DNA from: Nitratireductor indicus C115
GTDB taxonomy: Bacteria; Pseudomonadota; Alphaproteobacteria; Rhizobiales; Rhizobiaceae
Direction: 5' to 3'
DNA: 64,000 nucleotides
Assembly: GCF_000300515.1 (NCBI RefSeq)
Contig: NZ_AMSI01000007.1
Span: 62,001-126,000, forward strand
Part shown: in pieces, positions 7,947 through 20,667 of the stretch
Layout: each line of letters opens with the position of its first letter
Position numbering within the stretch: the stretch's first letter is position 1
The notes under the pieces: generated by a model
The model's database searches: none
What the model was told of the DNA's origin: nothing
Seen by the model: only the letters and a program-made list of their open reading frames with translations
Made by a program: the position numbers and the translations under genes

Positions 7947-8984
7947 TCAGCGGTGCCCGGAGCCATTGCTGGGAATGCCATCGATCGGGCATTCCTCGGT
8001 TCCCACGCTGGTGCGCGTCATGGCCTCGACCATCTCCCGCGTCCCTTCGGGATCGTTGACCCAGTTGGCGTAGAAATTATACGGGCATGCGGCCACACCC
8101 CGGTCGCCGTCGCCGGAGTTGATCATGCCGGTGTAGCCCCGATGCAGCAGCTTGAAGAGGTGGTTCTGCGACTGCATGTTCTTGCGCGCGTCGCGGATGG
8201 CCGAGACGGAGAGCTGTGCATACTGGATGCCGTTCTCCTCGGTTCCGCACTCGCCCAGCGTACGACCGTCGAAACCGATGATCGACGAATGGCCGAAATA
8301 GGAATAGACACCGTCGAAACCGGAAGCGTTGGCCACTGCCACATAGCTGTTGTTGGCCCAGGCCATCGACTTGGAGATCAGGATCTGCTGCTCCTTGGCC
8401 GGATACATGTAGCCCTGGCAGCGAATTATGAGCTCTGCACCACGCATGGCGCAATCGCGCCAGATTTCCGGATAATTGCCGTCATCGCAGATGATCAGGC
8501 TGATTTTCAGCCCCTTCGGCCCCTCCGTGACATAGGTGCAATCGCCCGGATACCAGCCTTCGATCGGCACCCAGGGCATGATCTTGCGGTATTTCTGCAC
8601 GATCTCACCCTTGTTGTTCATCAGGATGAGCGTGTTGTAGGGCGCTTTGTTGGGATGTTCCTCGTGGCGTTCGCCGGTCAGCGAGAACACCCCCCAGACA
8701 TTGGCCTTCTTGCAAGCCTCGGCGAAAATCGCCGTCTCTTCGCCCGGCACCTGCGAGGCGGTTTCATACATTTCCTTGGAATCATACATGATCCCGTGCG
8801 TCGAGTATTCCGGGAAGATGACCAGATCCATGCCCGGCAGGCCGATTTTCATCCCCTGGATCATGTCCGCGATGTTGCGGGCGTTCGCCAGCACCTCCTG
8901 ACGTGTATGCAACCGAGGCATCTTGTAGTTGACGACCGCGACGCCGACCGTGTCCTTGCTGCTCGAAATATCGCCGTGATACAT
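7947..8984 (-). CDS. amiE: Aliphatic amidase AmiE
   Basis: Nitrilase-superfamily amidase (345 residues) that hydrolyses short-chain amides such as acetamide to acid and ammonia in the cytoplasm. The catalytic residues fall exactly at the classical AmiE positions: E59 (FPEYSTHG), K134 (YRKIMPW), E142 and C166 (LIICDDG). The N-terminus MYHGDISSS is diagnostic of the family. The ATG at 8984 is preceded by AGGAGG at good spacing, and the upstream in-frame codons are not used. It lies downstream of the five importer genes and of two ANTAR-type leader terminators, so its induction should depend on AmiC and AmiR. Formamidase AmiF is the main alternative, but the length and N-terminus favour AmiE. 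Confidence 0.96.
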
Positions 8985-9021: not shown

Positions 9022-9717
9022 TCAGACGACGAGGTGTTCGTGGATGAGGTCGTCGGTGAGGCCCGCAATCTTCCCGTCGACCGCGACGCTGCCCCTGTTG
9101 AGGATCGCGAAGCGGTTCGATGCGCGGCGGGCGAATTTGAGGTTCTGCTCCACAAGGACGATGGTCAGTCCCTTGTCGCGATTGAGATCGATCAGCACCT
9201 GTTCGATCTGCTCGACGATGTTCGGCTGGATGCCCTCCGTCGGCTCATCGAGCAGCAATATCTTCGGCTGCGAAAGCAGCGCCCTGGCGATCGCCAGTTG
9301 CTGTTGCTGACCGCCCGACAGATTGCCCCCGCGCCTGTTGATGAACTCCTTGAGAATGGGAAAGAGCTCAAGCACCCATTCCGCGATGTCGCCATGGGCC
9401 GATTGCGCGGCGAAAGTGCCCACCATGAGGTTTTCGCGCACAGTAAAGGCAGGCAGGATGCCGCGGCCCTGCGGCACATAACCAAGCCCGGCACACGCGC
9501 GCTCATGGGTGGGCAGGCCGATCAACTCGCGGCCATCGAGCCGGACCGAACCGGTTGTGCGGCTCATCAGGCCGAGAACGGTGCGCAGCAGCGTTGTCTT
9601 GCCGACGCCGTTGCGCCCCAGAATGCTGAAGAAATCGCCCGTATCAACCGAAAGCGAAACCGATTGCAGCGCCCGGCTGCGGCCATAAAAGCCGTCGAGA
9701 TTGGCAAGCTCAAGCAT
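9022..9717 (-). CDS. urtE: Urea/short-chain amide ABC transporter ATP-binding protein UrtE type
   Basis: LivF/UrtE-type ATPase of 231 residues. It has Walker A (GRNGVGKTT), signature ([12 protein letters not shown]) and Walker B ([16 protein letters not shown]). The EGIQPNIV stretch is characteristic of UrtE. The ATG at 9717 has GGGAGGG upstream and overlaps the end of the urtD-like gene by eight bases. It pairs with the UrtD-type ATPase to drive the UrtB/UrtC-type permeases. Next to AmiE the cargo is probably a short-chain amide rather than urea (inference). Confidence 0.92.
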
Positions 9718-10474
9718 GGCCGATCCCTCCCGACCCCAGATAAGCCTCACGCACCCTCTGGTCGCTGGACACCTCATCCAGCGTTCCCTCCGCCAGAAGC
9801 TTGCCCTGATGCATCACCGAAATCGTCTCGGCGATGTCGCGCACGAACCCCATGTCGTGCTCGACCACGATCAGCGTGTGCTGGCCGCGCAGCCGGTTGA
9901 ACAGCTCCGCCGTCTTGTGGGTCTCCTGTCCGGTCATGCCGGCGGTTGGTTCGTCCATCAGGATCAGCGCCGGGTCCTGCGCGAGGATCAAGGCGATCTC
10001 CAGCCATTGCGTTTGCCCGTGAGACAGATGGGCAGCAGCCATCTCGAGCGCATCGCTCAAGCCGACCAGCTCTGCCAGGCGCTCGACCTCGTTGTCGTCC
10101 GTGCTGCCGCCGAAGCGGACAAGATTGGCGAACACACCGGTGTGGTGCGATCTGCCGATCTGCAGGTTCTCGCGCACCGTCAGCTCGCGGAAAACGCTCG
10201 GCACCTGGAATTTGCGCCCGATGCCGGCACGGGCGATCTCATATTCCTTCAGTTCGTGGATCGGCCTGCCCTCGAAGCGGATTTCACCGCCCGATACCCG
10301 GGTCTTGCCGCAGATGAGGTCGAGCGCCGTGGTCTTGCCCGCACCATTCGGGCCGATCAGGCAGCGCAGCTCGCCCCTGTCGACTGCAAGGTCGAGCCCG
10401 GAAACGGCGACGAAGCCGCCGAACGAAACGCTGACATCACACAATGCCAGCTGACTGTTGCTCTCGCTGTTCAC
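9710..10474 (-). CDS. urtD: Urea/short-chain amide ABC transporter ATP-binding protein UrtD type
   Basis: LivG/UrtD-type ATPase of 254 residues. It has Walker A (GPNGAGKTT), the signature LSHGQTQWLEIA (the HGQ variant typical of UrtD) and Walker B (LILMDEPTAGM). The GTG start at 10474 overlaps the permease stop (GTGA). Together with the neighbouring genes it gives the complete five-component order substrate-binding protein, permease, permease, ATPase, ATPase. Confidence 0.92.
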   Translation of the reverse strand: MNSESNSQLALCDVSVSFGGFVAVSGLDLAVDRGELRCLIGPNGAGKTTALDLICGKTRVSGGEIRFEGRPIHELKEYEIARAGIGRKFQVPSVFRELTVRENLQIGRSHHTGVFANLVRFGGSTDDNEVERLAELVGLSDALEMAAAHLSHGQTQWLEIALILAQDPALILMDEPTAGMTGQETHKTAELFNRLRGQHTLIVVEHDMGFVRDIAETISVMHQGKLLAEGTLDEVSSDQRVREAYLGSGGIGHA

Positions 10475-11601
10475 GATGCGCCCTCCCCGTGGGTGATGGC
10501 CTCGCCAGCCGGTTGGGATACGGACGGCACCTTGGCGGCGGACCGTCGTAGAAAGAGTGCCGCCAGCATCTCGAACGCACCGGCAATGCCCTTCGGCAGA
10601 AACAGGACGACGAGCACGAACAGGCCGCCCATGATCAGCATCCAGCTTTCGAGGAAGGTTTCGGATTCCGACAGTGCGCCCTGCACACCGGTGACGATCA
10701 GCGCGCCGATTGCTGCGCCGAGCAGGCTTTGCCGGCCTCCGACGGCCACCCAGATCACCACCGACAGGCTGAGCGGCACGCCGAGGAAGGTCGGCGAAGC
10801 GAATTCCATCACGATGGTGTAGAGCATGCCCGCCAGCCCGGCGATGCCCGCCGAAACCGCGAAGACGAAGATCTTGTAGAGCGCCACGTCATAGCCGAAG
10901 AAGCGCACCCGGTCCTCCTGGTCGCGGATCGCCTGCAGGATCATGCCAGTCTTGCTGCGAGTGATCGCAAGGGACAGGAGGAGCACTGCCGATAGACAGA
11001 ACGCCACCAGGTAATAGGTCGAGGAAGAATAGGCATCGAAGGCAAGGCCCGCGACTTCGAACTGAGCGAGATCCGTGATGCCATTGAAGCCGCCGGTGAA
11101 GCGCTGCTGATCGATGATCACCAGATTGACCACAACCATGGCCGCAAGCGTGATGATCGCCGCGTAGACGCCGGTAATGCGGCCACGGAACATGAACCAG
11201 CCGAGCAGGGCGGCGAAGGCCGCCGGCACCAGAATGCCCGCCATCAAGGCAAAGGCCATCGAGTGGAACGGCGCCCAGAACCAGGGCAGTTCGGTAACAT
11301 TGTTCCAGACCATGAAGTCGGGAAGCCCGTCGCTGCCGGTGTGTACCGGCACGGTGCCGAGCTTCAGCGCCATGGCCATGCAATAGGAGCCAAGGCCGAA
11401 CGTCGTCGCCTGCCCCAGATTGAGGATTCCCGCATAACCCCAGGACAGGCTGAGCGCGACGGCCAGCATGGCAAACACCAGATAGCGGGAATATTTGTTG
11501 AGCAGGAAGGCGTCGTCGAGAAACAGCGGTACCAGCAGGATGGCAACGCAGAACGCGCCGTAGAGCAAGGTTTGTTGGGCGGATTTGCCGGTCAGGTTCA
11601 T
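10471..11601 (-). CDS. urtC: Urea/short-chain amide ABC transporter permease UrtC type
   Basis: LivM/UrtC-type inner-membrane permease of 376 residues. Multiple hydrophobic helices and the family region SWGYAGILNLGQATTFGLG are present, the latter near residue 60. The ATG at 11601 has AAGGA about 13 bases upstream. In-frame codons up to 11646 precede it without a ribosome site and are excluded. The gene lies 31 bases after the UrtB-type permease. Confidence 0.92.
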   Translation of the reverse strand: MNLTGKSAQQTLLYGAFCVAILLVPLFLDDAFLLNKYSRYLVFAMLAVALSLSWGYAGILNLGQATTFGLGSYCMAMALKLGTVPVHTGSDGLPDFMVWNNVTELPWFWAPFHSMAFALMAGILVPAAFAALLGWFMFRGRITGVYAAIITLAAMVVVNLVIIDQQRFTGGFNGITDLAQFEVAGLAFDAYSSSTYYLVAFCLSAVLLLSLAITRSKTGMILQAIRDQEDRVRFFGYDVALYKIFVFAVSAGIAGLAGMLYTIVMEFASPTFLGVPLSLSVVIWVAVGGRQSLLGAAIGALIVTGVQGALSESETFLESWMLIMGGLFVLVVLFLPKGIAGAFEMLAALFLRRSAAKVPSVSQPAGEAITHGEGAS

Positions 11602-11632
11602 GATGCGGTTTGGTCCTTCTGTCCGGAGCCGT

Positions 11633-12502
11633 TCACGTGCGCACACGCGCGGCGAACAGGCCTTGCGGGCGGAAACGGATGAGGATGACGATGGCGAGCA
11701 GCACCAAAGCCTTGGCGATGGTGTCGTTGCTGTGGAATGCCAGGAAGCCCGAAAGCTCGCCGAGGATGCCGGAACTCGCTACGGTGCCAAACAGGCTCTG
11801 CGTCCCACCGAGCACCACCACCATGAAAGCGTCGACCACATAGGTCGTACCCATTTCCGGCGACACGCTCTTGAGCGGCGAAACCAGGGCTCCGGCAAGA
11901 CCTGCAATGCCTGCGCCATAGGCAAAGGTCGCCCGGTAGACACGGCCCGAATTGATGCCGAAGCTCGAGGCGATGTCGCGGTTCTGCGTGATGGCGCGCA
12001 GCTTCAGGCCGAAGGCGGTGTGGCGATAGATATACCAGGTCAGCGCGAAGAGGCTGAGCGCCAGGCCGAGAATGAACAGGCGGTAGGCCGATTCCGTTGC
12101 GCCGAAGATATTGACGCTGCTGCTGAGTGCTGCCGGCATCTCCACGTAACGCAGTTCGCCGCCAGCCATCAGCCGCACCGCCTGTTGCGCCATGACGCCG
12201 ATGCCCCATGTCGCGAGGATTGTATCGAGTGGTCGGTTGTAGAGATGCCGGATGACCAACGCCTCGATAATCCAGCCGAACAGCGCCAGGACGATGAAGA
12301 TCGGAACGAGGCTGGCGATAAGGCCTAGCCCGAATTCCGTCTGCAGGAACCAGGCGCAGTAAGCGCCGAGCATGACAAATTCGCCATGCGCGAGATTGAT
12401 GACGCCGGTGACGCCATAGATGACGGCGAGACCAAGCGCCACGAGCATCAGGATCGAGGCTATGCTGAGGCCGGTCAGAAGCTGCGATACGACAAGTTCC
12501 AT
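11633..12502 (-). CDS. urtB: Urea/short-chain amide ABC transporter permease UrtB type
   Basis: LivH/UrtB-type permease of 289 residues with about eight transmembrane segments. The family signature ALGLAVIYGVTGVINLAHGE lies near residues 22-41, and GINSGRVYRATF corresponds to the cytoplasmic coupling region. It forms the heterodimeric channel with the UrtC-type permease. The ATG at 12502 is the first of the frame; its ribosome site is weak (AGGCAG). It sits 72 bases after the binding-protein gene in the same transcript. Confidence 0.92.
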   Translation of the reverse strand: MELVVSQLLTGLSIASILMLVALGLAVIYGVTGVINLAHGEFVMLGAYCAWFLQTEFGLGLIASLVPIFIVLALFGWIIEALVIRHLYNRPLDTILATWGIGVMAQQAVRLMAGGELRYVEMPAALSSSVNIFGATESAYRLFILGLALSLFALTWYIYRHTAFGLKLRAITQNRDIASSFGINSGRVYRATFAYGAGIAGLAGALVSPLKSVSPEMGTTYVVDAFMVVVLGGTQSLFGTVASSGILGELSGFLAFHSNDTIAKALVLLAIVILIRFRPQGLFAARVRT

Positions 12503-12574
12503 CTGCCTGCTTTCGAAAAGCGTGAACGGGCAGGCGATGGCGCCCGGGCGCCATCGCCTCTCGGGCGCTGCGCG

Positions 12575-13822
12575 TCAGACTTCCTTCAAGCCTTCGGCGG
12601 TGCAGCTCTGGTTGGAATATGCCTTGTAGGGATCAGGCTCCAGCCAGTCGGCCGACTGCTTCAGTATCTCGAACTGACCGTCAGACTTGCAGCGGCCGAT
12701 CTTCGGGCGCAGCCATGTGTGCAGGTTTTCCGGCTCGACCTTGACGAGCCCTTGCGGCGCCTGGAATTGCTCACCCTTGACCGCCTCGCGGATGGTGTTG
12801 GGATCGATGTCGCTGGCCGCAAGCTTCTCCACCGCCTGCTTGAACAGATAGATCTGGAAATAGGATGGCTCGGAGACGAAATGCGTGACCTTGTCGCCGC
12901 CCCAGCGAGAGCGGTAGGCCTCGACGAACTTCTGATTTTCGGGCGAATCCCAAACCATGAAATACGGTGCGGATGTGAAATGGCCTGCGGCAGCCGCTCC
13001 GCCCATGGCGGCAACCTCGTTCTCCGATGTCGTCAAGCTCGCCATCGGCATGGTTTCGGGATCGAGCCCTGCGGCGTGGTACTGCCGGTGAAGCGCAACG
13101 ACTGAATCGCCCACCACCGTCGAGAAGATCACATCCGGCTTTTCAGCCTTGAGCTTGTTGATGACGGAAGAGAACTCCGAATGGCCGAGCGGCACATATT
13201 CCTCGGCAACCACCTCTCCGCCGAGCTCTGCCAGGAGCTTCTTGCAGTAGTTGTTCTCTTCCTTCGGATAGATGTAGTTGGAACCGATCAGGTACCAGCG
13301 CTTGCCGAAGTTCTCCAGCAGCCACGGCACAAAATCGTCCTGCTGCTGATTGGGCACCGCACCGGTGTAGATGACGTTCTTCGAGCACTCACGTCCTTCA
13401 TAGAGGGTCGGATACCAGTAGAGATTGTTCTGCTTCTCGAAGACGGGAAGAACCGCCTTGCGGCTGGCCGAAGTGTAGGAGCCGAAGACGGAAACGCATT
13501 TGTCGGACAGCACCAGCTTGCGTGCCTTTTCGGCGAAGGTTGCCGGGTCGGATGCCGGATCTTCCACGACCGGGACGATCTCCATGCCGTTGATGCCGCC
13601 GGCCGCATTGATCTCCTCGATCGCCATGATCGTCGCCTTGTTGAGCGATTCCTCGATGATGGCTGTCGTGCCGGTCAGCGAAAACAGGACACCGACCTTG
13701 ATCTGGCCGTTGGCGGCACGCGCCAGCATGCCATTTTTCGACCAGATATGGGGAAAGCCGCCGAGGGAGGCCGCGCCCAACGCCGCCGTGCCTTGAAGAA
13801 ACTTACGCCGATTGGTTGTCAC
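12575..13822 (-). CDS. urtA: Urea/short-chain amide ABC transporter substrate-binding protein (UrtA/FmdD type), Tat-exported
   Basis: Periplasmic type I binding protein of 415 residues. Residues 4-11 (NRRKFLQG) followed by a hydrophobic stretch form a twin-arginine signal. The mature protein begins near GQIKVGVLFSLTGT. Motifs YWYPTLYEG and VIYTGAVPNQ are shared with the cytoplasmic sensor AmiC in this window, so both probably bind similar amides. The GTG at 13822 has GGGAG about nine bases upstream; the open frame up to 13930 overlaps the leader terminator and is not coding. Its leader carries two terminators preceded by ANTAR-type hairpins. Length and fold match UrtA/FmdD. Confidence 0.93.
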   Translation of the reverse strand: MTTNRRKFLQGTAALGAASLGGFPHIWSKNGMLARAANGQIKVGVLFSLTGTTAIIEESLNKATIMAIEEINAAGGINGMEIVPVVEDPASDPATFAEKARKLVLSDKCVSVFGSYTSASRKAVLPVFEKQNNLYWYPTLYEGRECSKNVIYTGAVPNQQQDDFVPWLLENFGKRWYLIGSNYIYPKEENNYCKKLLAELGGEVVAEEYVPLGHSEFSSVINKLKAEKPDVIFSTVVGDSVVALHRQYHAAGLDPETMPMASLTTSENEVAAMGGAAAAGHFTSAPYFMVWDSPENQKFVEAYRSRWGGDKVTHFVSEPSYFQIYLFKQAVEKLAASDIDPNTIREAVKGEQFQAPQGLVKVEPENLHTWLRPKIGRCKSDGQFEILKQSADWLEPDPYKAYSNQSCTAEGLKEV

Positions 13823-13837
13823 CTTTGTTGCTCCCTG

Positions 13838-13891
13838 AAAATATAAAAGCCCCGAAACGCTGCTGCCTCTCGGCAGCTCGTTTCGGGGCTT
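13838..13891 (-). terminator. Second leader terminator upstream of the urtA-like gene
   Basis: On the transcribed (minus) strand, arms GCCCCGAAACG and CGTTTCGGGGC form an 11-bp stem, with an inner GCTGCC/GGCAGC stem capped by GAGA. TTTTATATTTT follows. It ends only 16 bases before the start codon, which is the position expected of an attenuator rather than of an operon end. Confidence 0.85.
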
Positions 13892-13930
13892 CGTCGCCTC
13901 TGATTGTTCGTTGCGGCGTCCCTGCCGCAA
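13887..13930 (-). promoter_or_regulatory. Candidate second ANTAR-type antiterminator hairpins
   Basis: Just before the second terminator, TTGCGGC-AGGGAC-GCCGCAA forms a 7-bp stem with a hexaloop having A at position 1 and G at position 4, as in known ANTAR targets. A second, weaker hairpin GGC-GACGAA-GCC follows (G in place of A1, G4 kept). Its 3' arm overlaps the first bases of the terminator stem, so the two structures exclude each other. Binding by AmiR is inference. Confidence 0.6.
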
Positions 13931-13954
13931 GCACCTTCACTGTGGTTCGGACAA

Positions 13955-13995
13955 TAAAAAACCCCACGTCCCGCCTGCGCGAAATCCGTGGGGTT
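13955..13995 (-). terminator. First leader terminator, between amiR and the urtA-like gene
   Basis: Minus strand: arms AACCCCACG and CGTGGGGTT, 18-base loop, then a T-run. This is an intrinsic terminator placed in the leader between the regulator gene and the importer operon. Its 5' arm is shared with the second ANTAR-type hairpin. Confidence 0.88.
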
Positions 13996-14029
13996 CCATT
14001 ACCCGTATGTGCGCGGCACCGTTGCCGCG
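13991..14029 (-). promoter_or_regulatory. ANTAR-type two-hairpin antiterminator target
   Basis: Hairpin 1 (14012-14029): CGCGGC-AACGGT-GCCGCG, a 6-bp stem with hexaloop AACGGT. After a 7-base linker, hairpin 2 (13991-14004): GGGT-AATGGA-ACCC, hexaloop AATGGA. Both loops have A1 and G4, the pattern conserved in RNA targets of ANTAR proteins. The 3' arm of hairpin 2 is the 5' arm of the terminator, so holding this structure prevents termination. It starts 16 bases after the amiR stop. AmiR is the obvious ligand. Confidence 0.78.
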
Positions 14030-14044
14030 AATGACACTGAAAAG

Positions 14045-14698
14045 CTAGCTAAGAAGTTCGTGTGAGTCAATAATCGCATTGGCCACGGCGCCAATAGTGA
14101 CTCGCCGCTCCATCGCTTGCCGCCGCAGATAGTTGTAGGCCTCCTCCTCCGTAACATCCTTCATGCGGATGAGCAGGGACTTCGCTCTTTCGACGCTGCG
14201 CATGGTGCGCAGGTTTTCGTCGAGCTTGTCGATCCGGCCACGTAGCCGCTTTTCGTAGAGGAAATGACCACGGGCCAAAGCAACGCAAGTTTGCGTGGTG
14301 CGCGGCGTGGCGGGATAATGCAACACGCCATGCGCTGCGCAATTGTGAATGAGCTGCAAGTCGAGCTCTCCGGTACCGCAATCGATCACCACCAATGCCG
14401 CCTCGGGTTCGCCCGGAATCCAGGGAATGCGTTGCGGCAGGTCCTCGGTCAGTGTGCAGAAGACAAGATCGAACTGCACTGGGATTTGCGGCGGCATCGG
14501 CCAGATATGCCGCACATTGCAGCGCAGGCGCTGCAATTCACGCATCAGCCGTTCTCCCTCGTCGTCGCGCCTGGCTATGATGGCGACGTCGAGATCCCAG
14601 AACGCCTTCTGCTGAGCCTGGATATTCGATTGGCCCGCGCTGGCCGCAGTCTTGTGCGATGGGCCACGCTTGCCTGCAGCGTGATCGTATCTTGCCAT
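14045..14698 (-). CDS. amiR: AmiR-like ANTAR antitermination regulator
   Basis: Cytoplasmic RNA-binding antiterminator of about 217 residues. An N-terminal pseudo-receiver fold (WDLDVAIIARRDDEGERLM onward) lacks an obvious phosphorylatable aspartate pocket. A coiled-coil linker (GRIDKLDENLRTM) leads into the C-terminal ANTAR domain (ERAKSLLIRMKDVTEEEAY). The known AmiR is held inactive by AmiC until an amide binds, then stops termination in the amidase leader. I prefer the ATG at 14698, preceded by AGGTGAG. The ATG at 14773, which overlaps amiC, has no ribosome site. Target-like hairpins lie just downstream. Confidence 0.9.
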   Translation of the reverse strand: MARYDHAAGKRGPSHKTAASAGQSNIQAQQKAFWDLDVAIIARRDDEGERLMRELQRLRCNVRHIWPMPPQIPVQFDLVFCTLTEDLPQRIPWIPGEPEAALVVIDCGTGELDLQLIHNCAAHGVLHYPATPRTTQTCVALARGHFLYEKRLRGRIDKLDENLRTMRSVERAKSLLIRMKDVTEEEAYNYLRRQAMERRVTIGAVANAIIDSHELLS

Positions 14699-14754
14699 TT
14701 TGTGCGTCTCACCTAGAGCGTTTTCGCGTGGTCCGATGATCCCCGGACTATCAT

Positions 14755-15897
14755 TCAGCTGTATTCGAGGCATCGTCCATACCCGATCAGATAGGGATCG
14801 GCCTTCACACTCGTCGGGGATTCATAGACGATGTCGAACTGGCCTTGCCGATTGGCGCGACCGATGCGGGTCCACAGATCCGCATGTCCCCAGATGGGAT
14901 TGATCGACACGCCGCCTTGCGGCGCATCGAATTCCGATCCCATGACGCTGTCGCGCATGAGGTTGGTTTCCATCGAGTTGGTTTTTTCCAGCGTCTTGGC
15001 AAAGACGTTGACCTGAAAGTAGGACGCCTCGAGACACATATTGGTCGGCTCATCGTCGCCATAGCGCTTCTTGTAGCGGTTGACGAAGGTGGTGTTGCTG
15101 TCATTGCCGACGCCCTGAAAATACGGAGCGGCGGTGAGGTGCCCTTCCCCCACATCGAAACCCATGGCACGAACCTCCGCCTCCGAAGTCGTGAGGCTGG
15201 CGATGGGGGTCACTTTCGGATCGAGCCCCATATCCGCATAGGCCTGGTAGAGAAAGACCGTCGCTTCGCCAACCACGGTCGAGAAGATCACATCGGGCTG
15301 AACCTGCTGGATGTCGCGCATGATCGGCACGAAGGCGCTGCGGTCGGCACCGAATTTCACGTAGCGCTCGCCCACCACGCTACCGCCCGAATGACGGATC
15401 AGTTCGCGCATGATGCGATTGGATTCACGCGGGTAGATGTAGTCGGAGCCGACGAAATAAAAGCGCGTGCCGTAAAGTTCCATGAGCGTGCGGCAGAGCT
15501 GCACGCTGTTCTGGTTCGGCGTCGCGCCCGTATAGATGACATTCGACGAGAATTCGAAGCCCTCATAAAGGGTCGGGTACCATAACAGGCCGTCCAGCCG
15601 TTCGACCACCGGCAGAACGGCCTTGCGGCTCGACGAGGTGTAGCAGCCGAAAATGGTGCTCACGCCATCCTCGACCATGAGTTTCTTGGCGTAAAGGCCG
15701 TAGGCCTTCGAATCCGAACCTGGGTCGTAGACGATCGGTTCGACCGGGCGGCCATTGATGCCACCCTTGTCGTTGATTTCATCTATGGCAGTCAGCGTTC
15801 CCCGGAGTTGGGTTTCCTCGATCACGGCCATGAAGCCCGTGCGCGAAAAGAGAATCCCGACACGCCAAGGTTCGGAAGTGTTGTTTGAACGCATCAA
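14755..15897 (-). CDS. amiC: AmiC-like amide sensor, negative regulator
   Basis: A 380-residue type I periplasmic-binding-protein fold without any signal peptide, so it stays in the cytoplasm, as AmiC does. Motifs WRVGILFSRTG, YDPGSDSKAYG, YWYPTLYEG-like LLWYPTLYEG and VIYTGATPNQN are typical. It is expected to bind short-chain amides and release AmiR. It is a clear paralogue of the Tat-exported binding protein of the importer, which differs mainly in its signal sequence. Its end overlaps the upstream alternative start of amiR, in line with co-translation. Start at 15897; the next codon is also ATG. Confidence 0.92.
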   Translation of the reverse strand: MMRSNNTSEPWRVGILFSRTGFMAVIEETQLRGTLTAIDEINDKGGINGRPVEPIVYDPGSDSKAYGLYAKKLMVEDGVSTIFGCYTSSSRKAVLPVVERLDGLLWYPTLYEGFEFSSNVIYTGATPNQNSVQLCRTLMELYGTRFYFVGSDYIYPRESNRIMRELIRHSGGSVVGERYVKFGADRSAFVPIMRDIQQVQPDVIFSTVVGEATVFLYQAYADMGLDPKVTPIASLTTSEAEVRAMGFDVGEGHLTAAPYFQGVGNDSNTTFVNRYKKRYGDDEPTNMCLEASYFQVNVFAKTLEKTNSMETNLMRDSVMGSEFDAPQGGVSINPIWGHADLWTRIGRANRQGQFDIVYESPTSVKADPYLIGYGRCLEYS

Positions 15898-15969
15898 TCA
15901 CACTCTCCCATTTTTCCCGGCCGCACGTTCCCCGGCGCGGCCTGTCATCACGAACGACGCGTTGTTTTT

Positions 15970-16992
15970 TTATGCATCGCTCGCCAGAAGCTCTTTGAGC
16001 TTTTCATCCAGAAACGCCACATCGACCGGGCTGGTGCCCGGGCCACCGGCGAAGTGTCCCCAGACGGATTCAATCGGGATCAAGGTCGCGTTCGGCATAT
16101 GTCCAACTTCGATCTCGCTGTCTTCGGGCGGAAAATAGAGATCCGTCCGTCCCGGCATAACATAAGCCTTTGCCTTGATTGCGCCGAGTGCTTTTTTGAA
16201 ATCGCCACCATAGAGCTCGTTGGCGCTGATATCGCCATTCTGCCAGGTCCACAGCATGGTGAGCAGATTGTTGGCATCCTTCGGCAGGAAAAATCCCTCC
16301 CAGAACGAGACGAGGAAGTCCTCGAGCGATGAATAGCCGAGCGTATTGAGGTCCAGCTCCTGCCGGTAGAAACTCTGCGAAAAGCCCCAGCCGGCATAGA
16401 CACGAGCCATGGCGCGCAGACCGCGTTCCGGCTTCTTCTCATACCAGCCCTCCTTGAAGGCTGCGTCGGCAGTCAGTGCTGCCTTGACGCCTTCAAGAAA
16501 GACGAAATTATGCCGGGAGCACTTGGCCGAACCGCAGAATGGAGCAATGCGCTCGACCATATCGGGGAACATAGCCCCCCAGTGGAAGGTCTGCAGCGCG
16601 CCCATCGACCAGCCCGTAACCAGTTTGATGGTCTTGACGCCGAACTTCTCCGTCATCAGCTTGTGCTGTGCACGAACGTTGTCATAGGCCGTGACATTAG
16701 GAAAGCGCGAGGCATTGTATGGCTCTGGCGTATTCGAGGGGGATGACGACAGCCCATTGCCGAGCATGTTCGGGATGACGATGAAATACTTGTCCGGATC
16801 GAGCGCCATGCCCTTTCCCACAAGCCATTCATTGTCGACATGCTGACCTGAATACCAGGTGGGATAGACGATCACGTTATCACGTTTCGCGTTGAGCTTG
16901 CCGAAGCTCTTATACGCCAGCTTGCAATCGCGCAGCGTCGCTCCGCCTTGCAGTGTAAAATCGCCCAGATCGAAAATTTCGTGGTCGGCCAT
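15970..16992 (-). CDS. Alpha/beta hydrolase of the homoserine acetyltransferase (MetX) fold
   Basis: A 340-residue MetX-fold protein. The nucleophile elbow is GWSMGALQ (S129), the acid is probably the aspartate in PGRTDLYFPP, and the histidine is in VWGHFAGGPG. True MetX enzymes are about 370 residues and lie with methionine genes. This one sits between an NCS1-type permease and amiC, so a hydrolase acting on an ester or amide imported by that permease is more likely (inference). The ATG at 16992 has GGAGG ten bases upstream; the TTG at 17001 is rejected. Confidence 0.85.
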   Translation of the reverse strand: MADHEIFDLGDFTLQGGATLRDCKLAYKSFGKLNAKRDNVIVYPTWYSGQHVDNEWLVGKGMALDPDKYFIVIPNMLGNGLSSSPSNTPEPYNASRFPNVTAYDNVRAQHKLMTEKFGVKTIKLVTGWSMGALQTFHWGAMFPDMVERIAPFCGSAKCSRHNFVFLEGVKAALTADAAFKEGWYEKKPERGLRAMARVYAGWGFSQSFYRQELDLNTLGYSSLEDFLVSFWEGFFLPKDANNLLTMLWTWQNGDISANELYGGDFKKALGAIKAKAYVMPGRTDLYFPPEDSEIEVGHMPNATLIPIESVWGHFAGGPGTSPVDVAFLDEKLKELLASDA

Positions 16993-17061
16993 GGCCGGCA
17001 ATCCTCCAGTTGAATGGAACAGAGTGCGGAGCCACCGGAAGATGGCTCCTGTTATTTTGTG

Positions 17062-18378
17062 CTACGCGCTTGCGCGGGCGGCAACGGGCATGCGGTTGAT
17101 CACGGCATAGGCAATGCCGCCGGCAAGCCCTGCCGAGATCGCTGTCGAAAGGTGCGGCGCATAAAATTCGACGATCACGGCGACCAGAGAGCCGAAGCCC
17201 CATGCGATAAAGGCCGTGGGGCGCCAGTCGCGGTCGATTTCGGCGTTGCGGCGGTGAAGATATTGATCGACCAGTATGATGGCGCCGATCGGCGGCACCA
17301 GAATGCCGAGCAGCGACAGCCATTGAATGAAGAAGGCCCAGACATTTCCTGCCGCAACAGCAATACCGATGGCGCCCAGAACGACGGCGAAGACGCGCAT
17401 GCGGCTGTTGAGGATACGGGACCAGCCGGTGGCCGCGTTGTAGAGACAGTGAGCGCAGACGGAGCCCAGATTGCAATACAGGAACAGGAAGGCAAGCACG
17501 CTGAGCAATGTCGCCTGCTTGGCATTCATGTAGCCGAACATGTTGTCGGCACCGAACGGGTTTGCATCCGGCACTGCGAGTGCTGCCGTCATGATCCCGC
17601 CCACCAGCATGGCGCAGAGATTGGCGAAGGGGAAAGCGCTGAAAGTGGCGATGATCGAGCTCTTTTTGTCCTTGGCCCAGCGGTTGAAATCGGCACTCAC
17701 CGTGCCCGCGTCGATGAACAGCGCAATCACCACCGTCAATCCGATGCCCATCGACATTGAGGCGGCACCGTTATTTCCGGGATATGCGAAGATCGCATCC
17801 CATGTGGTCGTGGAAGCGGCATCGAACACAACCCAGCCTCCCAGCACGACGAACAGCGGCACCGAGATAAGGCCGATAAGATGCAGGCCATGCACGCCGA
17901 CAAAGGTGATGCCGATATAGAGCAGGCCCGCGATGATTGTCATCGCCACATAGTTCAGGTCGTAAGCGGTGCTGATCAGAGAACCGGTGATGCCCGTCTG
18001 CACGGCATACCAGCCGAGCAACAGGGTCGACAGCAGTCCCGACGCCAGCATGTACCCCTTGCGACCGAAGACGACACTCGCCAGAAGCGCGAAATTCATG
18101 CCCCGATTGGTGCCCAGCACGCCAAGCGCACCCACATAGGCGAACATGATGAGATTGCCGATCACCATCGCCCAGAGCGCATTGGTGAACCCCATGCCGA
18201 GCACCAGGATGGAGCCTGTCATGGCACCGGTGATGATCATCGGGAAGCCGATCCATACCGTGGTGACGGAGAATGTGCTGCGCCTCGCCGATTGCGGAAC
18301 GGACTCGTGTTCATATTCCTCGCCGAGGACGTGGTCGACCTCATCGAAGGCTTCGGCCTCATTGCTTATCTTGCTCAT
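17062..18378 (-). CDS. NCS1-family (CodB-like) purine/cytosine permease homologue
   Basis: A 438-residue membrane protein with about 12 helices. It belongs to the nucleobase:cation symporter-1 family: N-terminal STFSVTTVWIGFPM, then AMTGSILVLGMGF, and a conserved FIDAGTVSADFNRWAKD. NCS1 members carry cytosine, purines, hydantoins, allantoin or thiamine; the cargo here is not visible. It is the first gene of the transcript that continues into the hydrolase, amiC and amiR. Its leader holds a strong terminator, so it is probably controlled by antitermination. ATG at 18378 with GAGGGG seven bases upstream. Confidence 0.9.
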   Translation of the reverse strand: MSKISNEAEAFDEVDHVLGEEYEHESVPQSARRSTFSVTTVWIGFPMIITGAMTGSILVLGMGFTNALWAMVIGNLIMFAYVGALGVLGTNRGMNFALLASVVFGRKGYMLASGLLSTLLLGWYAVQTGITGSLISTAYDLNYVAMTIIAGLLYIGITFVGVHGLHLIGLISVPLFVVLGGWVVFDAASTTTWDAIFAYPGNNGAASMSMGIGLTVVIALFIDAGTVSADFNRWAKDKKSSIIATFSAFPFANLCAMLVGGIMTAALAVPDANPFGADNMFGYMNAKQATLLSVLAFLFLYCNLGSVCAHCLYNAATGWSRILNSRMRVFAVVLGAIGIAVAAGNVWAFFIQWLSLLGILVPPIGAIILVDQYLHRRNAEIDRDWRPTAFIAWGFGSLVAVIVEFYAPHLSTAISAGLAGGIAYAVINRMPVAARASA

Positions 18379-18464
18379 AATCAGCCCCTCACTCGCTTTT
18401 TTGTTTGAATGCGGCCATCCTTCGCCCTCCCGGGACGTTGCATGGCAGCAGTTTTATTGAGCGC

Positions 18465-18517
18465 AAAAGAAAAGGCCTCCCCACGTCTCTGTTTCCAGAG
18501 GCATCGGGAGGCCTTTT
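18465..18517 (-). terminator. Leader terminator upstream of the NCS1-type permease gene
   Basis: Minus strand: arms AAAAGGCCTCCC and GGGAGGCCTTTT (12 bp) around an inner CTCTG-GAAA-CAGAG stem, followed by CTTTT. It lies 87 bases before the start codon, with no coding gene between it and the next gene upstream for more than 400 bases. It is therefore likely an attenuator in a long leader. Confidence 0.8.
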
Positions 18518-18533
18518 CGCCTGCAATTTTTGC

Positions 18534-18569
18534 CGGCAACATTGCCGCGCGAGAAACCGTCATCGGTTT
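18534..18569 (-). promoter_or_regulatory. Candidate ANTAR-type hairpins before the permease leader terminator
   Basis: CGGC-AATGTT-GCCG (18534-18547) forms a short stem with hexaloop AATGTT, which has A1 and G4. Six bases upstream AAACC-GATGAC-GGTTT (18554-18569) forms a second stem (loop G1, G4, though a 6-bp stem with tetraloop is also possible). Unlike the urtA leader, neither arm overlaps the terminator stem directly. The assignment is weaker and rests on the shared regulon. Confidence 0.42.
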
Positions 18570-18748
18570 GTAAAAAAGTTAGACCTCGACAAGAATTGTG
18601 TCAATCCCGCACGAATATCGTTGACTTGGTTGTGGTGGCAGACGGCCCTAAGCATTCGAGGAAGCGGCGCGGGGAAGGAAATAGGTTAACCAAGAGGCAC
18701 GAGCAGCCTCAGCGACCGCCAACCGGGAGGTTTAGGGGGTATGTCGTT

Positions 18749-18766
18749 TGGTTGCGGGGGCAGGAT
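18749..18766 (-). repeat. Fragment matching the 3' end of initiator tRNA (possible attachment-site remnant)
   Basis: The minus strand reads ATCCTGCCCCCGCAACCA, which from memory matches the T-arm/acceptor 3' end plus CCA of alphaproteobacterial tRNA-fMet. The rest of the tRNA is absent. An 11-base partial copy (TGGTTGCGGGG on the plus strand) recurs at 18800-18810. Such 3'-end fragments are common att sites of integrative elements. Identity with the resident tRNA gene could not be checked. Confidence 0.45.
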
Positions 18767-18769
18767 CTA

Positions 18770-18800
18770 ATCTTTACTTGCTGCCCGAGCAAGTAAAGAT
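18770..18800. repeat. Perfect 12-bp inverted repeat
   Basis: Arms ATCTTTACTTGC and GCAAGTAAAGAT with a seven-base spacer lie between the two tRNA-like direct repeats. No T-run follows. It may be a recombinase or regulator site; it is not explained by any gene nearby. Confidence 0.6.
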
Positions 18801-18965
18801 GGTTGCGGGGACGGGCAGCCATCATAACTTGCTATTCGAAACAGCTGCATAACCTACTCGTGGGTGACCTATTGCGCGCTGTATCCGTCAATTTTTCGAA
18901 CGGAAGCGACAACCTTCGCGGAGCAAATCGATGCGTCCAGTTTCATTACCCTGCCTGCGCCAGAG

Positions 18966-19934
18966 TTAAGTCCGAGCGAGCATAAGGTAGGCGAAGTAAG
19001 CTATGTAGCAACCGACAAATGCTGCCCCTTCGGCCCGCGACAGAGTTCTGCCCGTGAGGAAGGCTGGAACGCAAAGCACAGTTGCCGCAGCCATAACAGG
19101 AATGTCGACGGCGATGAGCGTTCTTTCCACGGTGATCGCTTCGCTCGGAACCAGCATCGTCAGCCCAAGAATGACTGCAATATTATAGACACTGCTGCCC
19201 AAAAGATTGCCTACCGCGATCTCGCGCTCATTGCGTACGGTCGAGACGATTGTCGTGATCAGTTCAGGGCTCGATGTGCCGATTGCAACTATGGTCAGTC
19301 CGATAAGAGCTTCGGAGACCTCCAACCTGCGAGCAAGATCGGAGGATCCCCATACGAGCCAATCCGCGCCTATTGTGATGACCGCAATACCACCAATCAT
19401 GACGGCGACGTTCAACCATCCGCTCCGCGGAGCGTCGCGCATCGGGCGTGGCAGGACTGGCAACTCTTTGTCGGGTGGCGAACTTCTTAAGCGCGCGCTT
19501 CGAACGACCAGGACGATATAGCCGATACCACCAAGCAGGAACACAAGGCCCTCGGCTCTCGACAGATAACCATCAGCTGCAAACACCCAGAACGCCAGTG
19601 CGGCGGCTATCATTGCAGGGAGTTCAAGCCCAACGGAGACCGGTTCCAAAACAACGGGCCGAGCGATAGCACATAGTCCAAGGATGAACAGCAGACCGAA
19701 GGTGTTGGTGCCGGCGATGTTCCCGACGACCAACCCTCCTTCTCCCGTCAACGCGGCATTGATGCCCACCGCCAGCTCAGGTGTGCTTGTCCCGATCGCA
19801 ACAAATGTGAGCCCGATGACGAGCGGGGATATGCTCAGCCGGCGCGCGAGCGTCGACCCGCTGCGCACCAGTATATCCGCTCCGCCGACCAAAGCGAGGA
19901 GGCCAAGCGCGCACCAGAGAATTGCGGCCGTCAA
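18966..19934 (-). CDS. Calcium/sodium antiporter (CaCA family, YrbG-like)
   Basis: A 322-residue inner-membrane cation/Ca2+ exchanger with the family's two inverted repeats. The first has VIGLTFVAIGTSTPELAV followed by VGNIAGTNTFG; the second has LIGLTIVAIGTSSPELIT followed by VGNLLGSSVYN. The glutamates in the two PEL motifs are the ion ligands. About ten helices and normal length. It lies alone on the minus strand, 70 bases after the nitroreductase stop. It probably exchanges Ca2+ for Na+ or H+. Near a Na+-pumping NQR operon, a sodium-driven mode is plausible (inference). Confidence 0.93.
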   Translation of the reverse strand: MTAAILWCALGLLALVGGADILVRSGSTLARRLSISPLVIGLTFVAIGTSTPELAVGINAALTGEGGLVVGNIAGTNTFGLLFILGLCAIARPVVLEPVSVGLELPAMIAAALAFWVFAADGYLSRAEGLVFLLGGIGYIVLVVRSARLRSSPPDKELPVLPRPMRDAPRSGWLNVAVMIGGIAVITIGADWLVWGSSDLARRLEVSEALIGLTIVAIGTSSPELITTIVSTVRNEREIAVGNLLGSSVYNIAVILGLTMLVPSEAITVERTLIAVDIPVMAAATVLCVPAFLTGRTLSRAEGAAFVGCYIAYFAYLMLART

Positions 19935-20004
19935 GGCTTGTGTCTCTGCAGAAGCACCGGATATGCGGCAAGGCCTGCATGCCGCTCTATGACCACGCTC
20001 CGGA

Positions 20005-20667
20005 TCAGCCGATTTCGCCTAAGGGCTGGATATATGTCACCGAAAGATGATCCGGGAACTTCAGCGCTGTTTTAATAGCTTCGCGGTCCACCGTACCGAG
20101 GAGGCATGTGCCGAGCCCTTCGGCAGCGCAGAACAGATAGACGTTCTGGGCCATGATGGCTGAGTTGACGCGTGCGGCGATAACCAGTTCTTCGGGCGCA
20201 GACTTGGCCAGGTCACCGGCGGCAGCGGCAAGTTTCTCGGCATCAGAGACATAGATCAGCACCACGGGCGCCCTGCGTACGAAAGCCGTGGGGCTGACAT
20301 CCGCGCGAATATCTGTATCGGCCACTTTGTTGAGAGCGTTTGCCACGGGGTCGTAGAGACTGACGCCATCTTCCAGCGCGACGTAGATATCGACGTTCTT
20401 CGCACCGTGCCAGGCGGGCGCTGTGCGTCCATCACCGTCCGCGCGGTTGACACCATTGGCCGCCCACAGTGCTTCGAGCACCTTTTCGCGCGCAACGTCA
20501 CCACGCCCGAAGCGCTTGGTAGAGCGGCGCTGTTTCAGGGCTTCCTGCACGGAGACGGTTGCAGCGCCGCCGGAGGCCACCTGCGCATTGGCTGTCCCGA
20601 CGATACCTGCGGACGCTGCCGCACTGGTTCCTGCGAGAAACAATCTTCTGGAGAGCTGTCGTGTCAT
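20005..20667 (-). CDS. Nitroreductase-family FMN protein with twin-arginine signal
   Basis: A 220-residue nitroreductase-fold protein. Residues 4-10 (QLSRRLF) and a hydrophobic stretch ending at ANAQ form a Tat signal, so the FMN-loaded enzyme is probably exported folded to the periplasm. The core begins with VSVQEALKQRRSTKRF, the FMN-contacting RRS motif of the family, and AEGLGTCLLGTV marks the C-terminal FMN site. Periplasmic Tat nitroreductases are uncommon. Its place after the NQR and CBS genes suggests a redox role. ATG at 20667 with AAGGA upstream; the codons up to 20841 are excluded. Confidence 0.85.
   Translation of the reverse strand: MTRQLSRRLFLAGTSAAASAGIVGTANAQVASGGAATVSVQEALKQRRSTKRFGRGDVAREKVLEALWAANGVNRADGDGRTAPAWHGAKNVDIYVALEDGVSLYDPVANALNKVADTDIRADVSPTAFVRRAPVVLIYVSDAEKLAAAAGDLAKSAPEELVIAARVNSAIMAQNVYLFCAAEGLGTCLLGTVDREAIKTALKFPDHLSVTYIQPLGEIG

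Follow-up and report, generated by a model that had tools for sequence, protein, structure and literature searches.

A putative series of three ANTAR-type attenuators in an amiC-amiR-urtABCDE-amiE operon of Nitratireductor indicus C115

In Pseudomonas aeruginosa, amide-dependent antitermination is served by one leader ahead of amiE. This leader carries a dual hexaloop hairpin over a terminator and belongs to an amidase operon controlled by AmiC and AmiR (PMC3369931), as appears to be the case at the locus described here. Pathways with multiple ANTAR elements are already known (eut) or predicted (Desulfotomaculum acetoxidans): the EutVW-controlled eut pathway of Enterococcus faecalis contains four ANTAR/terminator elements, and at least 13 elements are predicted in six transcription units of D. 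acetoxidans. A back-to-back layout is not evident from the text descriptions of either. EutV is kinase-driven, unlike AmiR, and is modelled in PMC3369931 and PMC8934654 as a dimer on a dual hairpin; the former also gives 12 nt as the upper value of the linker among eut genes and reduced induction with 14 nt. In bgl of Escherichia coli, the antiterminator gene bglG has a terminator on either side and precedes the transporter gene bglF (PMC9499468), and the nitrate leaders of NasT-NasS, also a sensor-antiterminator pair, have their hairpins between regulator and structural genes (PMC5424462). PMC13209695 mentions NorQ- and NorD-like genes in a plasmid-borne amiE-amiC-amiR operon; PMC8164766 and PMC6759348 were also consulted. 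Among the results listed by our literature searches there was no paper on back-to-back ANTAR modules; D. acetoxidans comes close.

The window, i.e., the whole stretch of 64,000 nucleotides analysed here, differs from the P. aeruginosa arrangement in that amiC-amiR lie upstream of both importer and amidase, the transporter is urtABCDE, and there are three modules. With its ANTAR elements, it resembles a version of the bgl layout that uses another protein family, BglG having its own RNA site, phosphorylation control and two terminators versus three here. NasT-NasS respond to nitrate; in this genome, a gene for a NasT-like protein stands apart from the operon. We consider it likely that AmiR opens three attenuators in series, with M0/T0 ahead of amiC-amiR and M1/T1 plus M2/T2 ahead of the importer and amidase genes. 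The sequence itself shows three modules, how they overlap with terminators, in which order they stand and that they are conserved. The features, all on the minus strand, are given below in the direction of transcription.

18576..18604, minus strand: putative sigma70-type promoter, TTGACA-17-TAACTT, seen by eye at the operon head
18509..18549, minus strand: module M0, an ANTAR-like dual hairpin (P1 18547-18534, P2 18522-18509)
18469..18518, minus strand: predicted terminator T0, its 5' arm shared with M0 P2 (-39.0 kcal/mol, z -8.8)
17062..18378, minus strand: Transp_cyt_pur permease gene (PF02133), the first gene behind T0
15970..17001, minus strand: alpha/beta hydrolase gene (PF00561)
14755..15897, minus strand: amiC-like sensor gene (PF13433; matches 1pea AmiC; no signal peptide by eye)
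14045..14698, minus strand: amiR, with AmiR_N and ANTAR domains (domain matches and 1qo0_D)
13991..14029, minus strand: module M1, the dual hairpin found originally (P1 14029-14012, P2 14004-13991; A1 and G4 in both loops)
13955..13994, minus strand: predicted terminator T1 (stem 13994-13961) with its T run (-21.0 kcal/mol, z -4.4)
13887..13930, minus strand: module M2, the second dual hairpin after amiR (P1' 13930-13911, P2' 13898-13887; rank 3 with models R1 and R2)
13846..13892, minus strand: predicted terminator T2, its 5' arm shared with M2 P2' (-37.8 kcal/mol, z -9.3)
12575..13822, minus strand: urtA-like binding protein gene (GTG start, RRKFL Tat-like leader by eye; TIGR03407)
9022..12502, minus strand: urtB, urtC, urtD and urtE transporter genes, all four above the NCBIfam cut-off
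7947..8984, minus strand: amiE aliphatic amidase gene, start at MYHGD (NF009802, 720 bits, cut-off 427)

The putative operon therefore has the order permease, hydrolase, amiC, amiR, urtABCDE and amiE, and the two genes after amiE are probably part of it as well. Upstream of M1, the gene that had been read as encoding an ANTAR protein is indeed amiR: AmiR_N (PF21332, 53.5 bits) and ANTAR (PF03861, 54.5 bits) both exceed their cut-offs, the best solved-structure match is PDB 1qo0_D AmiR (E 1.7e-12), and the conserved alanines and aromatic residue of ANTAR are present by eye in the C-terminus. The genome was found to encode two ANTAR proteins, AmiR and the NasT-like one, a protein of 197 aa beside a NasS-like gene (L001, G000:C4:255550-258711; both labels from reading). 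The sensor matches 1pea AmiC with an E-value of 3.5e-87, with 8tg1 slightly ahead (299.1 vs 296.1 bits), and shares with AmiC the Peripla_BP_5 domain family and the pairing with amiR in gene order. The labels urtABCDE-amiE of the original prediction hold for UrtB to UrtE and AmiE, which score above their cut-offs, but UrtA reaches 428.9 bits against a TIGR03407 cut-off of 492.75, which would fit an amide-adapted relative. The proposed norQD labels are weak: in NCBIfam there was a sub-cut-off, GvpN-like AAA match, and no family matched the 755-aa protein. The two genes after amiE recall the NorQ/NorD-like genes of the plasmid operon (PMC13209695). The permease and hydrolase genes head the operon in the window and in L003, L005-L007, L021, L022, L116 and L117, and stand after amiE in L009-L014 and L016-L018, so that they apparently move together with the amide operon.

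In module M1, P1 is CGCGGC(AACGGT)GCCGCG, followed by a linker of 7 nt (14011-14005), and P2 is GGGT(AATGGA)ACCC. The two hexaloop hairpins that had been predicted just after amiR, with loops AACGGT and AATGGA and with A1 and G4 in both, are thus present at 14029-13991 on the minus strand, and the 3' arm of the second, ACCC, starts the 5' arm of T1 as had been described. The whole leader folds with a z of -4.5 (0 of 200 shuffles equally good), and the two hairpins alone with a z of -1.9 (8/200 as good). In the RNAfold minimum-energy form, an extra A1-U6 pair closes P1 into a tetraloop. Among orthologs, loop position 6 may be T, C, A or G; it is therefore the hexaloop, and not the extra pair, that is conserved. 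An alignment of 23 loci (the window, L003-L022, L054 and L055) has two hexaloop hairpins with stems of at least 3 bp in every locus, and A1 and G4 in all 23 P1 loops. The P2 loop has G4 in 21/23, with A4 in L021 and L022, and A, G or C at position 1 in 13, 8 and 2 loci, respectively. The stems covary: with nine pairs scored across 19 distinct rows, 97.7% of cells are paired, and 14 double-change cells were counted versus 4.3 after shuffling, with 0 of 500 shuffles as high. Of the three modules, M1 is the most canonical.

The reading of this site as an ANTAR-type antiterminator between amiR and the importer thus agrees with a dual hairpin over a terminator beside AmiR- and AmiC-like genes, but M1 is only the middle one of three modules. 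The 'full mechanism' proposed for T1, in which its release would lead to expression of the importer and amidase, is not supported in that form. Release at T1 alone should not express urtABCDE-amiE, because T2, which is predicted to be stronger and has a hexaloop pair to itself, follows T1 ahead of the urtA start; in addition, M0/T0 precedes the first gene of the operon and hence amiC-amiR. The covariance-model check suggested for M1 had a divided outcome: an Rfam search of 12500-17500 (E up to 5) returned four matches, all far below gathering scores and none ANTAR-like, whereas a model trained on M0 (R2, see below) matches exactly 13991-14029 on the minus strand.

At the operon head, M0 consists of P1, CGGC(AATGTT)GCCG, and P2, AGGC(GAAAAG)GCCT, separated by 11 nt; the P2 loop has neither A1 nor G4, so A1/G4 are found at two of the four loop positions. 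Its region was read in 23 of the 24 tandem loci (those with both M1/T1 and M2/T2), the contig of L019 having too little upstream DNA. By eye, P1, a terminator and, some 40-60 nt 5' of P1, a TTGACA or TTGACT box are seen in 23/23 of these loci, with a weak pair in L020. The operon-head promoter was likewise recognized by eye only, as the pattern scan listed no promoter on the minus strand. A search for sigma-54 sites gave 81 matches with at most two mismatches versus 73.7 expected, and a weak one at the M0 promoter, TGACACAATTCTTGT, was not counted. M0 lies about 200 nt ahead of amiC in loci without a permease in front, and further upstream, ahead of the permease, in L116 and L117. Double changes in P1 amount to 9 cells versus 2.3 after shuffling (0/500 as high); two other covariation measures are not raised, with 271/500 shuffles as high for pairs with a double change and 500/500 for pair types. 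Folded alone, the M0 pair does not show the two hairpins at minimum energy (z -0.84, 34/200 shuffles as good). Many M0 orthologs have A4, often in P2. The third pair of P2 is broken by eye in Shinella-type loci, and the P1 loops of L008 (6617-6658) and L015 (6517-6559) appear to have seven bases. A scan for terminator-like sites listed none on the minus strand in 14700-20500, the scan being blind to long loops and having missed T0 too; we infer a single transcript from the M0 promoter through to amiR.

Module M2 stands against the urtA start. P1' is TTGCGGC(AGGGAC)GCCGCAA, with A1 and G4, and P2' is GGC(GACGAA)GCC, with G1, G4 and three pairs only, so that three of the four loop positions are canonical. 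A strong terminator T2 is found directly ahead of urtA in all 24 tandem-clade loci, for which reason a single-terminator reading was rejected. A pattern search found GGC(N6)GCC ahead of T2 in 23/23 loci, with G4 in 20 of them (A4 in L004, L054 and L055) and position 1 divided between A (11) and G (12). The GCGGC hairpin of P1' has a hexaloop in 16/23 loci, where position 4 is G in 15/16 and position 1 is G in 12, A in 2 and T in 2; it has a pentaloop in L005 (by eye), L006 and L012 and is unclear in L004, L019, L021 and L022. Compared with an eut range near 5-12 nt, the linkers of the window are 7 nt in M1, 11 nt in M0 and 12 nt in M2, and the M2 linker spans 9-15 nt in the 16 hexaloop loci, mostly 12-15, at or beyond the upper value. 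A covariation test on these loci, which omitted the seven without a clear hexaloop P1' (L004, L005, L006, L012, L019, L021 and L022), gave 0 double changes and 90.5% of cells paired versus 91.6% after shuffling, the stems being nearly invariant. The stretch with most of M2 minus its last arm folds no better than shuffles (z -0.17, 74/200). Because the stems do not covary and the loops are partly non-canonical, M2 is the least certain of the three modules.

The modules were related to each other by three covariance models, R1 trained on M1 only, R2 on M0 only and R3 on 31 modules of all three kinds. On the 64-kb window (both strands, filters off), R1 gave 53.3 bits for M1, 25.5 for M0 (E 4.5e-4) and 14.4 for M2 (E 0.12), the next match having 12.5; R2 gave 46.9 bits for M0, 24.8 for M1 (E 4.8e-4) and 16.9 for M2 (E 0.028), followed by 15.3 for the opposite strand of M1's P1. 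Therefore, each model places its two unseen modules second and third, with weak E-values for M2 in both cases. Over 63 sources, R1 matched M2 in 11/24 tandem loci, and in the whole genome M2 was 21st of the 25 matches listed (150 of about 6000 candidates scored). One whole-genome match of R1, C14:125781 (L152), lies inside and antisense to an ABC ATPase gene and was rejected. The top three of R3 in the whole genome (150 of 5870 candidates scored) are M1, M0 and M2, with 42.7, 40.2 and 34.9 bits and 25.3 for the next, these three having been among its training modules. Four of its next-best places among the 27 listed (L165-L168) have no terminator-like site within 150 nt and were set aside. Outside the R3 training set, G1146 (L128; AmiR 59%) has all three modules, with 37.6, 29.6 and 24.0 bits. 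In the window and L003-L022, a hexaloop pair defined by G4 in both loops, a linker of 5-16 nt and P2 overlapping a terminator was found at M1 in 19/21, at M2 in 13/19 and at M0 in 3/17 loci, and at 1/195 other terminator-like sites; T2 of L021 and L022 is missing from this tally, as the terminator rule did not pick it. By chance, such a pair is expected at 0-0.0015 per locus in the shuffled 60 nt upstream of T1 and at 0-0.0055 in shuffled M2 upstream sequence. In all three window modules, the second hairpin's 3' arm doubles as the 5' arm of a predicted intrinsic terminator.

It is conceivable, although we think it unlikely, that only M1 (perhaps also M0) is AmiR-controlled and that M2/T2 is a decayed ANTAR site acting as an unregulated partial terminator that sets the importer-to-sensor ratio. 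The lack of covariation in the M2 stems, the long linker, the hexaloop P1' without A1 in 14/16 orthologs and the pentaloop or unclear P1' in 7/23 would all agree with such decay. However, P2' keeps its GGC(N6)GCC frame throughout and G4 in 20/23 loci while its other loop positions vary, R1 and R2 both rank M2 third in the window without having seen it, and the hexaloop pair is far more frequent at M2 (13/19) than elsewhere (1/195). Moreover, an unopened T2 of 14 pairs should block the importer under induction. A clearly less probable arrangement is that T1 merely ends an amiCR transcript while urtA is transcribed from a promoter located between T1 and T2, so that M2 alone would function as a leader. 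From T1 to M2 P1', the distance is roughly 80-115 nt in Shinella-type loci, which leaves room for a promoter, but in the window about 24 nt lie between the T1 T run and P1', no promoter-like site is listed in 13000-15000, and M1, with its covarying stems, is the most canonical module of the three. An action of the hairpins on translation or RNA stability rather than on termination, for which some ANTAR targets thought to control translation give a precedent (PMC3369931), is highly improbable, as each of the three modules overlaps a predicted strong hairpin with a T run behind it, and T2 alone is near a start codon, with a stem that by eye ends before the likely ribosome site.

In the preferred reading of three serial attenuators, M0/T0 directly follows the putative promoter, and the interval from amiR to urtA holds M1/T1 and, immediately behind it, M2/T2. 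As long as amide is absent, AmiC would hold AmiR and T0, T1 and T2 would all form, so that a trickle of transcription past T0 would make AmiC and AmiR while T1 and T2 would stop most of it before the costly importer and amidase genes. P1 and P2 can fold ahead of synthesis of the terminator's 3' arm. With amide, free AmiR would bind the P1-P2 pair of each module as the RNA emerges, its dimers being expected to hold both loops as in the EutV model, and would keep the 3' arm of each P2 out of the terminator, so that polymerase would read through. That this AmiC binds amide, that AmiR is then released and that polymerase reads through are carried over from P. aeruginosa by analogy, and one transcript, AmiR binding, the amide signal and feedback are likewise conditional parts of the model. 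Because amiC-amiR lie behind T0, release of AmiR would raise AmiR itself, a positive feedback. The strong T0 and T2, the weaker T1 (-39.0, -37.8 and -21.0 kcal/mol as predicted) and the most canonical loops in M1 suggest tuned steps. A tentative and rather doubtful extension is a graded cascade, with the sensor and regulator behind one stop and importer and amidase behind three. The back-to-back modules might then act as a steep switch of an AND-like kind, with AmiR dimers loading onto the same nascent RNA, and M2 and M0, with altered loops (G1 or A4), might have lower affinity than M1, so that genes would open in order as free AmiR rises. If the serial reading is true, the one-switch model of AmiR would become a serial-attenuator circuit with positive feedback and a two-step importer lock, and the loop variants (G1, A4, C1) beside a single AmiR would provide a natural test of the A1/G4 recognition rule.

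The three-module layout is conserved in several families that belong to one bacterial order, and in one genome outside it. A search of genome contigs with AmiR yielded 21 loci, and L003-L022 are 20 loci with 52-91% identity that have amiC, amiR, urtA and amiE in the order of the window; the 21st (L023) matched in the ANTAR part only and was dropped. Additional close loci are L054 and L055 (identical with L116 and L117) and G1146 (L128), and many other AmiR matches exist beyond the loci fetched with flanks. The M1 plus M2 pair marks one clade of 24 AmiR loci: in a tree of 61 rows, a branch with support 95/85, present in 96% of bootstrap trees, separates all 24 tandem loci from the rest. The tandem label stands for T1 and T2, each with a P2 hairpin; 18/61 rows are unlabelled, and the tool gave a long-branch warning.

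The nearest outside loci with urtA after amiR (L109, L118 and L119; 40-48% identity) have one module each, and more distant AmiR loci mostly have one or none by the hexaloop-pair rule (two in L114). Upstream of amiC in 40 loci (700 nt; 380 nt in L109), terminator-like sites were found in L113, L114, L128, L131 and L134, with a hexaloop pair in L114 only. This rule is insensitive, as it misses the M0 pair of L128 found by R3 and the after-amiR modules of L109, L116 and L119, and its 'none' calls are weak. A single module may be the ancestral state, with the further modules as an elaboration specific to the tandem clade. L114 (G077:C1:452030-462087), which is outside that clade, has two modules, the first ahead of amiC (P2 loop AATGGA) and the second between amiR and an amiE homolog; a head module may have arisen more than once.

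Several relatives have other loops or positions. In L139 of G624, a more distant proteobacterium, amiE is directly preceded by a dual hairpin (8493-8533, minus strand) that has a strong terminator, a P2 loop AACAAG (A4) and one mismatch in P1; R3 gave this place 22.6 bits (E 0.072 over 49 sources). The site rests on its position more than on its score, because a whole-genome R3 search of G624 (150 of 9275 candidates scored) listed two other places (24.3 and 23.6 bits) and not this one. After amiR, L109 (2426-2469) and L119 (L057) have A at loop position 4 (AACAGC/GACATT and GACATA/AGCAAA, respectively), and an altered specificity of their AmiR is possible. Eight loci with an AmiR of 32-38% identity (L028, L062, L063, L065, L066, L069, L121 and L144) have a single module after amiR in which G4 is kept and the P2 loop starts with T (TATGTA, TATGCA, TTTGAA, etc.), a departure from A1.
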